Origin: Vagococcus jeotgali
GTDB taxonomy: Bacteria; Bacillota; Bacilli; Lactobacillales; Vagococcaceae
DNA: 64,000 bases
Direction of reading: 5' to 3'
Assembly (NCBI RefSeq): GCF_035918315.1
Contig: NZ_CP142146.1
Location: 1,736,001-1,800,000, forward strand
Below the pieces are notes generated by a model, which saw only the letters and a program-made list of their open reading frames with translations, did no database searches and was not told the origin of the DNA. The position numbers were made by a program, and so were the translations under genes. This document shows positions 1,709-13,342 of this stretch, in pieces (position 1 is the first letter of the stretch; each line of letters starts with the position of its first letter).

Positions 1709-3337
1709 ATGGGAAAAGATATTAAATTTTCTGAAGACGCACGTAGCTCAATGATGCGTGGTGTTGATACACTAGCAGATATTGTAAAAGTAACATTAGG
1801 ACCTAAAGGACGTAATGTGGTTTTAGATAAATCATTTGGTTCACCACTCATCACAAATGACGGGGTGACAATTGCTAAAGAGGTAGAATTAGAAGACCGC
1901 TTTGAGAACATGGGAGCTCAATTAGTAGCTGAAGTTGCATCAAAAACAAATGACATTGCTGGAGATGGTACAACGACTGCTACTGTGTTAACTCAAGCGA
2001 TTGTTCGTGAAGGGTTAAAAAATGTGACAGCTGGAGCTAATCCTATTGGAATTCGTACAGGAATTGAAATGGCAACTAAAGAAGCTGTTAAAGCATTACA
2101 TGACTTATCTCAACAAGTCGATTCTAAAGAATCAATTGCTCAAGTTGCAGCTGTTTCTTCTGGTAGTGACACTGTAGGTACTTTGATTTCTGAGGCTATG
2201 GCTAAAGTTGGTAACGACGGAGTTATTACAATTGAGGAATCTAAAGGAATTGAAACAGAATTAGAAGTTGTTGAGGGGATGCAATTTGATCGTGGGTACT
2301 TATCTCAATATATGGTAACAGACAATGACAAAATGGAAGCTGTTTTAGAAAGTCCATATATTTTAATTACAGATAAAAAAATCTCTAATATCCAAGATAT
2401 TTTACCTTTACTTGAACAAATTTTACAACAAAACAAACCATTAGTTATTATTGCTGATGATGTTGACGGGGAAGCTCTACCTACTCTTGTCTTAAATAAA
2501 ATTAGAGGAACATTCAATGTCGCAGCTGTCAAAGCACCAGGTTTTGGCGATAGACGTAAAGAGATGCTTGAAGACATTGCTGTTTTAACTGGTGGTACAG
2601 TTATCACTGAAGAATTAGGTTTAGACCTAAAAGATACAACTTTAGAAGCTTTAGGAAGTGCAAGTAAAGTTGTTATTACAAAAGATACAACAACAATTGT
2701 TGAAGGAAATGGTAATAAAGAAGCTATTAAAAACCGCGTTGAATTAATCCGTTCTCAAGCAGCTGATACAACATCAGAATTTGACCGTGAAAAATTACAA
2801 GAACGCTTAGCTAAATTATCTGGTGGTGTTGCTGTTGTTAAAGTCGGAGCAGCTACTGAAACAGAATTAAAAGAGTTAAAATTACGTATTGAAGATGCGC
2901 TTAATGCAACTCGTGCTGCTGTTGAAGAAGGCATCGTTCCTGGTGGAGGTACAGCTTTTGTCAATGTACTTGAAAAAGTATCTAATGTAAAAGCAGACGG
3001 TGATGAGCAAACTGGGATTAATATTGTCCTACGTGCATTAGAAGAGCCTGTTCGTCAAATCGCAGAAAATGCTGGAATGGAAGGCTCTGTTATTGTTGAC
3101 AAGCTAAAACATGCTAAGCCTGGTATAGGTTATAACGCTAAAACAAATGAGTGGGTAAACATGATTGAAGCAGGTATTGTCGATCCAACTAAAGTAAGTC
3201 GCTCAGCTTTACAAAATGCTGCAAGTGTTGCTGCTTTATTATTAACTACTGAGGGTGTTATTGCAGATGTTAAATCTAATGACCTGCCTCCTATGCCAGG
3301 TGGTATGGATCCATCAATGATGGGCGGTATGATGTAA
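1709..3337 (+). CDS. groEL: Chaperonin GroEL
   Basis: This is the 60-kDa chaperonin that folds proteins with ATP and GroES. It has 542 residues, the normal length. Visible motifs are the ATP-binding [10 protein letters not shown] near residue 87, the signature [14 protein letters not shown] near residue 404, and a C-terminal Gly-Met tail ending PSMMGGMM. An ACGAGGTGG ribosome site precedes the ATG. Its last 26 bp plus the next 3 bp (3312-3340) are repeated exactly at 13314-13342, which marks the gene's 3' end as the attachment site of the neighbouring island. Confidence 0.98.
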
Positions 3338-3340
3338 ACT
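3312..3340 (+). repeat. attL-like direct repeat in the groEL 3' end
   Basis: This 29-bp sequence covers the last groEL codons, the TAA stop and three bases after it. It is repeated exactly and in the same orientation at 13314-13342, where no groEL frame exists. Flanking bases differ on both sides. The pattern fits site-specific integration that rebuilds the 3' end of the target gene. Confidence 0.8.
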
Positions 3341-3369
3341 CTTTAAAAGACTTACGTTGATATAAAAAG

Positions 3370-3404
3370 AACCACATGAGGATTTTACTCTCATGTGGTT
3401 TTTT
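3370..3404 (+). terminator. Terminator downstream of groEL
   Basis: Arms AACCACATGAG (3370-3380) and CTCATGTGGTT (3390-3400) are followed by a T-run. A related but longer hairpin lies after the right repeat at 13368-13405. That one may be the native groEL terminator and this one the copy brought by the island. Confidence 0.8.
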
Positions 3405-3424
3405 GATGTGGAATGTGATGTGAA
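3405..3424 (+). repeat. Island-end repeat 1 (possible integrase arm site)
   Basis: The 20-bp sequence starting GATGTGGAATGTGATG has imperfect copies in the same orientation at the other island end: 13169-13188 (17 of 20 bases equal) and 13083-13102 (weaker). Repeats of this kind just inside both att sites resemble arm-type sites of tyrosine integrases. Confidence 0.4.
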
Positions 3425-3541
3425 CTAGTTAACTTTCTTTTTGAGAGTGTAATATAAACCGTGTAAGTAACCTACCATCCTAGGTAGTGGGTTGCTTCGC
3501 GGTTTTTCTTTTTTTACAATAGATTAAAGGAGTGGTAAGTC

Positions 3542-4783
3542 ATGACAAAAAAGAAAAAAGATCAAAAATCAGCGAAGTTAGCTCAATCAATTATTGATGC
3601 CTATCAACCAGAATCGGTTGAAGACATGCAAGAAGCCCTAAAAGATGTTTTTGGACCGATGTTTGAAGCAATGCTTCGTGGAGAATTAGATAATCATTTA
3701 GGTTATGAGAATCAGTCAAGACAAGAAAAAGAAACTCAAAACAGACGGAATGGATATGGAAATAAAAAATTAAAAACAAGTTTTGGTGAATTAGACATTC
3801 AGGTTCCTAGAGATAGAGACGCTTCTTTTGAGCCAGAAATTATTCCTAAAAGAAGCAGAGACGTTTCAAGTATTGAAGGAAAAGTTCTTTCTATGTATGC
3901 CAAAGGCATGAGTCAACGAGATATTGCCTCGACAATTGAAGATATTTATGGTTTTACTATTTCTCATGATATGGTGTCGGATATCACAGATCAAATATTA
4001 CCAGAACTTGAGGAATGGCAAATCAGACCTCTGGCCAAATGCTATGCCTTCTTGTTTGTCGATTGTATGTATGTCACTCTAAGAGAAAATTATGAAGTGA
4101 AAGAATGTGCGGTGTATACAATTCTTGGTTATGATTTAAAAGGAAATAAAGAAATTCTAGGTCTTTGGCTAAATCAAACAGAATCGAAAAATAGATGGAT
4201 GCAGATTTTTGATGAGATTAAAGAGCGTGGCGTTGAAGATATTTTGTTTATTTCAATGGATGGTGTATCAGGGCTTGAAAATGGAGCCAAAGCTATTTTC
4301 CCAGGTGTTGTCGTTCAACGTTGTCTGGTCCATTTAGTTAGAAATGCCCTTCGTTATGTGCCAAGTAAAAGTTATAAAGAGGTTTGTAAGGATATGAAGT
4401 CTTTTTACAGTGCCTCCTCTTTAAAAGCGGCTCAAACAGCTTTTGATACCTTTCAAACAAAGTGGGCAGTCTATCCTGGAGCTATTGATGTTTGGAAAAG
4501 AAATTTCCACCATGTCGAACAATTATTTGATTACGGCTCAGCTATTCGAAAAATAATGTACACGACAAATGCTGTAGAAAGTGTTCACTCTAGTTTCCGC
4601 AAGGTAACTAAAAAAGGAGCTTTCCCTAATGAGAATGCCCTTCTTAAGCTATTATATCTTCGAGTGAAAGAACTTCAAAGTAAATGGGAAGGTGGGCATG
4701 TTCATAATTGGGCTATGGTGCTTAACCAATTAACGGTCAACGACTCTTTTTCAAAACGTGTCGAAAAATATAATCGTTACTAA
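3542..4783 (+). CDS. IS256 family transposase
   Basis: DDE transposase of the mutator/IS256 type, 413 residues and apparently intact. Catalytic positions can be read as FVDCMYV (first Asp), SMDGVSGLENG (second Asp) and TNAVESVHSS (Glu), with the family sequence RCLVHLVRN between them. An AAAGGAG ribosome site lies just ahead of the ATG. The protein differs strongly from the other IS256-like transposase at 5298-6467. Confidence 0.93.
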   Translation: MTKKKKDQKSAKLAQSIIDAYQPESVEDMQEALKDVFGPMFEAMLRGELDNHLGYENQSRQEKETQNRRNGYGNKKLKTSFGELDIQVPRDRDASFEPEIIPKRSRDVSSIEGKVLSMYAKGMSQRDIASTIEDIYGFTISHDMVSDITDQILPELEEWQIRPLAKCYAFLFVDCMYVTLRENYEVKECAVYTILGYDLKGNKEILGLWLNQTESKNRWMQIFDEIKERGVEDILFISMDGVSGLENGAKAIFPGVVVQRCLVHLVRNALRYVPSKSYKEVCKDMKSFYSASSLKAAQTAFDTFQTKWAVYPGAIDVWKRNFHHVEQLFDYGSAIRKIMYTTNAVESVHSSFRKVTKKGAFPNENALLKLLYLRVKELQSKWEGGHVHNWAMVLNQLTVNDSFSKRVEKYNRY

Positions 4784-4806
4784 TCAAAATAAGTGAGACA
4801 TATAAA

Positions 4807-12260: not shown

Positions 12261-12364
12261 TAATTTCATGAATAAATATTAGTTCTTTACAAAATAGACA
12301 CAACCTACCTATCATCAAACAGCTAGCTCTTCTAATTTTCAATTACATAACAAAAAATCTCCAA

Positions 12365-12865
12365 CTATTTATTAAACTCATCTAAAAAAGACTGAAACGA
12401 ATTAGTCTGAACATCTAACAGTTCTATTTTGGTTCCTCTTAATTTTCGTTTAATTTCTTTTTTTCGTGGTTGTTTTATTATCTCTTGATTTTTATTTGGT
12501 GCCTTAATAGGTGGAAAATTATTTTCCTCAGCTAATCTATTGTAGTGATTAACTAAATTAAGCTGTGTACTTTCCACTAAACTACTTACTTCTTTATAGT
12601 TTGGAATATAAAGATAAACGTAATTAGTTTTTCTTTCTTTAGGTGAATGAGTCCTTAGAGAAATAGTTATAATTTTATTCAAGTATTTCATTTTCACTTC
12701 AAAGTAAAAAGAATCCGTTGTTTTAGAAACACTAGATTTTACTTGTTGAACAGCTGATATTTTATTTAGACCTTCTCTTATACTTTGTGAAATAATTTCA
12801 TAATACCTTTTGGACACATCATTTCTGTCCTGAAAAAAATTGATTTCTTTACCATCAATAATCAA
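12365..12865 (-). CDS. Hypothetical protein (island gene)
   Basis: 166 residues from a TTG start with GAAGGTG eight bases ahead. The protein is charged and soluble, with no signal peptide or membrane segment. The C-terminal third is basic (KQPRKKEIKRKLRG). No family is recognised. It is the last gene before the right island end and the only one there that seems intact apart from the toxin. A nucleic-acid-binding role is possible but unsupported. Confidence 0.65.
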   Translation of the reverse strand: MIIDGKEINFFQDRNDVSKRYYEIISQSIREGLNKISAVQQVKSSVSKTTDSFYFEVKMKYLNKIITISLRTHSPKERKTNYVYLYIPNYKEVSSLVESTQLNLVNHYNRLAEENNFPPIKAPNKNQEIIKQPRKKEIKRKLRGTKIELLDVQTNSFQSFLDEFNK

Positions 12866-13082
12866 AATTGAAACACCTTCTTCACTTTCTCTATTAATTT
12901 AATCATATCATATTTCAAATTTTATAAATTAAATAATCTTCGATGACTCAAACCAAGAAAAGGTGCAACGTAAACCAAAAATCATTACATCCAAATTCTA
13001 TACTTCCCCACTCAAGAACGTTGTAAAAACAACGTATTAGTTACATAGTTAGAAGCCAAAGACATTGCTAGATGTGGATTTA

Positions 13083-13102
13083 GATGTATTTTGTGATGAA
13101 AT
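13083..13102 (+). repeat. Island-end repeat 3 (weak copy)
   Basis: GATGTATTTTGTGATGAAA matches the 13169-13188 copy at 15 of 20 positions, including the TTGTGATG core. It has the same orientation. Confidence 0.3.
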
Positions 13103-13168
13103 CAGTGAAGATAAATTTTAAATCTTTCTATAGTTACTGACAATACTAGAGAAGCTATTTTATATTTA

Positions 13169-13188
13169 GATGTGAATTGTGATGTAAA
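13169..13188 (+). repeat. Island-end repeat 2
   Basis: GATGTGAATTGTGATGTAAA matches the left-end copy 3405-3424 at 17 of 20 positions and lies about 125 bp inside the right att-like repeat. The left copy lies about 65 bp inside its own. Confidence 0.4.
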
Positions 13189-13313
13189 ACCCAATAACCA
13201 CCAAAATAAACTTAACTATAAATTTAATAACTAATTAAACATTCGTCTTTAACTGTGTTTTCGTTATTTTTTTATGTTTTAACAGTAGGTTAAACCTAAA
13301 AACCTAACTTTAT

Positions 13314-13342
13314 CATCAATGATGGGCGGTATGATGTAAACT
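13314..13342 (+). repeat. attR-like direct repeat of the groEL 3' end
   Basis: Exact 29-bp copy of 3312-3340 in the same orientation, with no groEL reading frame before it. It is followed at 13368-13405 by a hairpin similar to the one after groEL. Confidence 0.8.

Follow-up and report, generated by a model that had tools for sequence, protein, structure and literature searches.

Organization of the locus downstream of groEL

In the window, a 64,000-nucleotide stretch of the Vagococcus jeotgali genome (NZ_CP142146.1, positions 1,736,001 to 1,800,000), the gene groEL is followed by 10 kb of DNA flanked by two copies, 3312–3340 and 13314–13342, of an exact 29-bp direct repeat of the groEL 3′ end (Table 1). 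This DNA is very probably a decayed integrative genomic island from a groEL-targeting family, which in our searches is confined to a single genus (the Vagococcus group). The repeat, described in an earlier note made from the letters of the window alone, was borne out: at ≤3 mismatches, two matches to it were counted in the window, versus 0.00 expected in 100 shuffles. A 20-bp core within it occurs twice in the 2,016,295-bp genome at the same tolerance, both times at the island. Among exact direct repeats of at least 24 bp starting in groEL (from 1700) or in 13300–17000, the 29-bp repeat stands alone. The groEL open reading frame (ORF) is intact (542 aa), and its C-terminal MMGGMM is the same as in 13 relatives. 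The earlier note had described a similar hairpin after each copy, which stands (the right-hand hairpin is a palindrome with an 18-pair stem). It had also called the flanks unrelated, which holds only in part, for the bases after the two cores are alike over 73 bp at 78%, through the hairpin. Since the similarity carries on that far, the two tails are diverged relatives.

The same similarity could be taken to mean that the second repeat is a groEL tail, hairpin included, duplicated by ordinary rearrangement or insertion sequence (IS) activity without site-specific recombination. The likeness indeed passes the 29 bp, and the region is rich in IS elements. However, the similarity between the two copies begins sharply inside groEL, and the same arrangement, with spaced arm-like motifs, recurs in two relatives (G004 and G010, see below), the former also carrying integrase genes. 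Because of these motifs and the relatives' integrase, a duplicated groEL fragment was discarded, and we consider it highly improbable.

Consistent with the earlier note, the DNA between the repeats consists of IS elements, gene remnants, a type I toxin-antitoxin-like locus and a 166-aa orphan gene. Outside the IS elements there remain the left end, a remnant near 4955–5250, a split gene and a 2-kb right end, the last comprising a truncated gene, the toxin-antitoxin-like locus and the orphan gene. The two IS3-type copies are near-identical and inverted to each other; the IS3 and ISL3 labels are presumed family assignments. As the note had stated, no integrase is readable in the island: of the five matches that the tyrosine integrase profile PF00589 gave in the genome, none lies inside it, and a tblastn search with the integrase of G004 gave one 11-residue match (E=2). 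For the loss of the integrase, the note had further pointed to the IS3-type copy lacking a target duplication as a possible place. The lack of the duplication was confirmed, and this copy cuts the right-end gene of the island; a deletion there is likely, since the gene starts at this point and matches only residues 336–511 of the 511-residue G004 protein. The integrase may have been lost with it, which is compatible with the data; no trace of an integrase was found in the island. Judging from its gene content, the window copy is a decayed remnant, an incomplete element. ISL3-type copies lie at 8041–9531, 18593–20086, 25070–26490 and 54835–56328, three at least 99% identical to the first; four copies within a 64-kb part of a 2.0-Mb genome suggest a recent expansion of this IS.

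Table 1. Features of the groEL locus and the adjacent island (window coordinates)
Feature	Coordinates	Strand	Remarks
groEL	1709..3337	+	ORF; the final 26 bases make up most of the core; homologues in 14/14 same-genus genomes, own included
Left attachment core (attL)	3312..3340	+	identical to 13314–13342
Terminator-like hairpin, island type, now after groEL	3366..3404	+	fold z −5.65
Putative integrase arm site, left	3405..3421	+	GATGTGGAATGTGATGT; 88 bp from core start
IS256-family transposase gene	3542..4783	+	Transposase_mut 1.8e-101
Second IS256-family transposase gene	5298..6467	-	Transposase_mut 1.9e-115; 89% identical match in relative stretch L023
IS3-type element, copy 1	6582..7859	-	target duplication TAT/TAT
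Split gene, 3′ piece	7865..8040	-	ORF; no Pfam match; parted from 9532–9960 by the ISL3-type element
ISL3-type element	8041..9531	-	8-bp target duplication AGAATAAT on both sides; splits one gene
Split gene, 5′ piece	9532..9960	-	no match in plasmids and PHROGs (9532–9960) or in Pfam and PADLOC (9502–9960)
IS3-type element, copy 2	10033..11310	+	no target duplication (AAC/CTA)
Truncated right-end gene of the island family, C-terminal third	11311..11913	+	homology to G004, G010
Type I toxin-antitoxin-like locus (rli28-like)	11940..12267		Rfam models
Orphan 166-aa gene	12365..12865	-	homologue (60%) directly downstream of groEL in G006
Putative outer arm site, right end	13071..13087	+	3 mismatches; 248 bp before core
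Putative inner arm site, right end	13169..13185	+	2 mismatches; 150 bp before core
Right attachment core (attR)	13314..13342	+	identical to left core
Presumed original host groEL terminator	13367..13406		fold z −8.34 (+), −7.95 (−); no arm motif behind; assigned by elimination

Related islands and an integrase in the genus

The window belongs to genome G000, which was compared with 13 other genomes of the same genus; all 14 have groEL. A conserved DUF6681 gene lies on the same contig as groEL, 2.8–25.4 kb away, in ten of the 14 (own included); the two genes are on separate contigs in G010 and G013, and DUF6681 had no match in G003 and G005. The DNA between groEL and DUF6681 differs from genome to genome, and the conserved syntenic content that the earlier note had set against an island was not seen. 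The note's main proposal, an integrative element that inserted and then decayed, gains support from this comparison. Parts of the window island other than IS elements were recognised in three relatives, G004, G010 and G006. Homologues of the right-end gene are present in G004 and G010, and the toxin-antitoxin region is also found in G010. The window gene is 39% identical to residues 336–511 of the 511-aa G004 gene and 73% identical over 59 aa to the G010 island end, and the two right ends of the window and G010 align at 75% over 569 columns and 70% over 466. When 67 stop-to-stop frames of the G010 contig and the G004 islands were compared with the window island, four matched at E≤1e-3: two for the right-end gene (one each from G004 and G010), one for the toxin-antitoxin region and one for 18 residues spanning the left hairpin and motif. 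Across the order, the right-end gene was found in two of 395 genomes, a search that missed the known G010 fragment, and the 511-aa protein had no match among plasmids and phages. In G006, a toxin-antitoxin-like locus and the orphan gene stand right after the groEL hairpin. Farther on between groEL and DUF6681, G006 has a second stretch that resembles the rli28-like toxin-antitoxin region (stretch L021, from 10638; 74% over 368 columns).

A counterpart with an intact integrase is in G004, whose contig matches Vagococcus fluvialis bH819; according to a 2022 paper, this strain is not V. fluvialis (73% average amino acid identity; PMC9413892). Cores are found at or after groEL at C22:221854, 238495 and 241909, the third with one mismatch, so that there are two tandem islands of 16.6 and 3.4 kb. 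These resemble the window island in core, motif distances and right-end gene. The first differs from it in having an intact integrase, a UG17-type reverse transcriptase with SLATT, and restriction-modification genes, none of which was found in the window copy. The reverse transcriptase and SLATT genes are the first after groEL (L032:1967-4032; PADLOC RT_UG17 2e-114, reverse transcriptase-associated SLATT 2.3e-40), and the type II restriction-modification genes follow further on; on account of these genes the island carries phage-defence cargo. The second island (L033:1496-4929, 3.4 kb) has a truncated integrase of 198 aa near its right core. The hairpin behind the third core is island-like as well and may be what is left of a third insertion. 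In G010, one more core was found, on a separate 6.5-kb contig.

The tyrosine integrase that the earlier note suggested looking for beside the same repeat exists intact in one relative, with remnants in that genome and in a second one. The intact enzyme (428 aa, with catalytic and SAM-like domains; phrog_1 7.7e-55, Phage_integrase 9.1e-25) is encoded by the first G004 island, where a serine resolvase-like gene and one for a 194-aa tyrosine recombinase are also present. The second G004 island and, just after groEL, G013 retain remnants of the 428-aa enzyme; the G013 remnant (L017:302-607) has one TAG stop and is close to the contig end. The matches to this integrase are three, all in groEL islands, in two of 29 family genomes (E≤1e-40) and two of 395 order genomes (E≤1e-30; four candidates were scored per listed genome, so relatives may be missed). 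Scans for the integrase that reach close relatives only gave no relative among ten IMG/VR stretches fitting a pattern, and among 34 matching stretches of genome contigs the sole relative was the query genome itself. The enzyme is similar to phage-type tyrosine integrases (PHROG 1), whereas its identity to phage and plasmid integrases is 22–28% among the matches listed (15 of 175 phage, 15 of 64 plasmid).

Arm-like motifs and the groEL terminator

The island ends share a 17-bp motif, GATGTGGAATGTGATGT. Allowing ≤3 mismatches, the window contains it three times, each time at an end of the island, versus 0.22 expected. In the 300 bp before the right core, a region picked after the sites had been seen, at least one site occurred in 1 of 5000 shuffles and two sites in none of 5000. 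The distance from core to left motif is 88 bp in the window, 89 bp at each of two G004 cores and 88 bp in G010. Before the right core, the inner motif lies at 150, 151 and 152 bp and the outer one at 248, 259 and 250 bp in the window, the first G004 island and G010, respectively. Such near-fixed spacing in the window island and two others is what putative integrase arm sites would show, and the layout is, we take it, as expected for arm sites of a lambda- or Tn916-like integrase. After groEL, the motif is present at ≤2 mismatches in seven of the 14 genomes (G000, G004, G006, G008, G010, G012, G013). A 20-bp form of it has 21 matches in the 14 genomes at ≤3 mismatches, and 11 of them (0–3 mismatches) are at cores or island ends. 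A gapped core-plus-motif pattern without mismatches was found in five of 395 order genomes, all of this genus, and missed the known cases G010 and G012.

The tails after the cores fall into two classes. Nine motif-bearing tails have a mean identity of 87% to each other, versus 72% for nine others. The 85-bp tail with the left hairpin of the window is 82–92% identical to the eight other motif-bearing tails, with a mean of 87% to these and 75% to the rest. We therefore read the left hairpin as island-borne, so that groEL would appear to have received its present terminator from the island. The right hairpin is presumed, by elimination, to be the original host terminator. The earlier note had expected relatives without the island to show one copy of the repeat followed by the right-hand hairpin of the window. 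A single core, then a hairpin, without the arm motif, is indeed found in G005, G007, G009 and G011; none of them has the 13367 hairpin of the window, their tails being at most 75% alike.

The motif might instead be an ancestral feature of the Vagococcus groEL tail rather than an integrase site, in which case the genomes with the motif would not all have island ends. It does stand behind groEL in seven of the 14 genomes, four of which lack a second core at ≤3 mismatches, and some tails without the motif look like decayed motif-bearing tails. On the other hand, in three islands another two copies stand before the far core, their distances from it being conserved, and the far tail of the window is devoid of the motif. 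We regard an ancestral origin as unlikely, and it would weaken the genus-wide count of islands, not the case for the window island.

The reading as a decayed groEL island draws on the repeat, the spaced motifs, the homologous right ends, the intact integrase of one relative and the damage by IS elements, all features of sequence. From them we infer integrase binding to the motif, the exact crossover point, the original terminator and the order of the losses, which would add up to the following scenario. A tyrosine integrase would act on the groEL 3′ end and on the island core, which matches the gene's last 20–29 bp, and recombine the two. Such a crossover would keep the GroEL protein unchanged and leave island DNA, terminator hairpin first and then arm site, behind groEL, with the host's own terminator displaced by 10 kb to behind the second core. 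IS256-, IS3- and ISL3-type elements would have entered afterwards, and the integrase and most of the cargo would have been lost. Both ends, the type I toxin-antitoxin-like locus, the orphan gene and gene pieces would be the survivors of the original island. With more reserve, we find it rather probable that the attachment site of this genus-restricted family is a captured Vagococcus groEL tail including its terminator, that an essential chaperone gene thereby receives the island's terminator in place of its own at every integration, and that tandem stacking turns the groEL 3′ end into a hot spot with room for defence cargo (restriction-modification and the UG17 reverse transcriptase with SLATT).

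Several observations weigh against this reading. The right tail of the window is about equally far from both tail classes (mean 69%, range 64–75, to tails without the motif; mean 70% to motif-bearing ones). The tails of G002, G003 and the third G004 copy lack the motif and yet resemble the island type (76–87%), because of which the two classes overlap; these tails may be decayed island ends. The other ten matches of the 20-bp motif form are elsewhere, all with 2–3 mismatches, and a reversed control gave six. G006, G008, G012 and G013 have the left motif and no second core at ≤3 mismatches, so that either their islands are incomplete or the motif has another origin there; the G013 contig stops about 2.7 kb after groEL. 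In G006, G008 and G012, PF00589 has no match between groEL and DUF6681. The second core of G010, on its separate contig, may not be linked to groEL. A gene for a WxL-interacting protein to the right of attR (13471–14637) has no match in the stretches of the 13 relatives compared, which makes the right flank of the island itself variable. Finally, the window copy yielded neither an integrase nor an excision function, and no movement of the island was observed.

Relation to known groEL islands and remaining cargo

That islands elsewhere attach at the groEL 3′ end, as the earlier note said, has a precedent in the Staphylococcus epidermidis island SeCISE48, where the att site and the final 18 bp of groEL overlap (PMC8125051), so this kind of target was already known. 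Like SeCISE48 and other staphylococcal groEL islands of the phage-inducible satellite (PICI) type, the Vagococcus islands integrate at the groEL 3′ end and leave groEL unchanged; the staphylococcal ones differ in host genus, in being packaged by a helper phage and in having their transfer shown (PMC8125051). One may ask whether the window island is a degenerate PICI. Besides the shared target gene end with SeCISE48 (PMC8125051, as above), the G004 integrase distantly matches streptococcal satellite phages (23.5% identity). Yet the G004 island proteins scanned (ten with Pfam, four with PHROGs; not every ORF) yielded no packaging, capsid-interference or primase protein; recovered were recombinases, DNA-binding and DNA-modifying proteins and a reverse transcriptase. 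No phage-interference, packaging or replication module was matched among the proteins scanned from the decayed window island and the first G004 island (again not every ORF); so far as these proteins show, the Vagococcus islands differ in this from the staphylococcal PICIs. Relaxase and conjugation genes, which would mark an integrative and conjugative or a mobilizable element, were likewise absent among the ten G004 proteins scanned with Pfam, a part of the island ORFs. On the proteins scanned, a degenerate PICI is quite improbable in our estimate.

No description of groEL islands in Vagococcus was found in the open-access literature by title or abstract start, and groEL is never mentioned in the main text of the V. 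fluvialis mobile-element paper (PMC9413892). Two other papers (PMC12458937 and PMC5603545) were, in the parts consulted, irrelevant to groEL as an attachment site. What is new here is the layout of the arm-like motifs, the island-type groEL terminator and the relative with both an integrase and defence genes. The window island itself is a genuine but fairly ordinary genomic island with good comparative support. The groEL 3′ end, a known staphylococcal target, has also been used repeatedly for integration in Vagococcus, and the arm-like motif layout helps to delimit such islands even once the integrase is gone. The defence-gene-carrying relative in G004 could still be mobile, and with this family the replacement of an essential gene's terminator by an island can be put to the test.

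As for the remaining cargo, the toxin-antitoxin-like locus scores 99.4 bits (gathering score 45) with the rli28 model at 12076–12267 on the minus strand, the BsrG and RatA models staying below gathering. Similar DNA is present in 273 plasmid records, several of which, among the matches listed, are annotated as putative holin-like toxin. Matches to His_leader and microRNA models in the same scan were below their gathering scores and were treated as chance. The orphan 166-aa gene had no match in Pfam, PADLOC, PHROGs and phage searches; within the genus it is present in two of the 14 genomes, own included.

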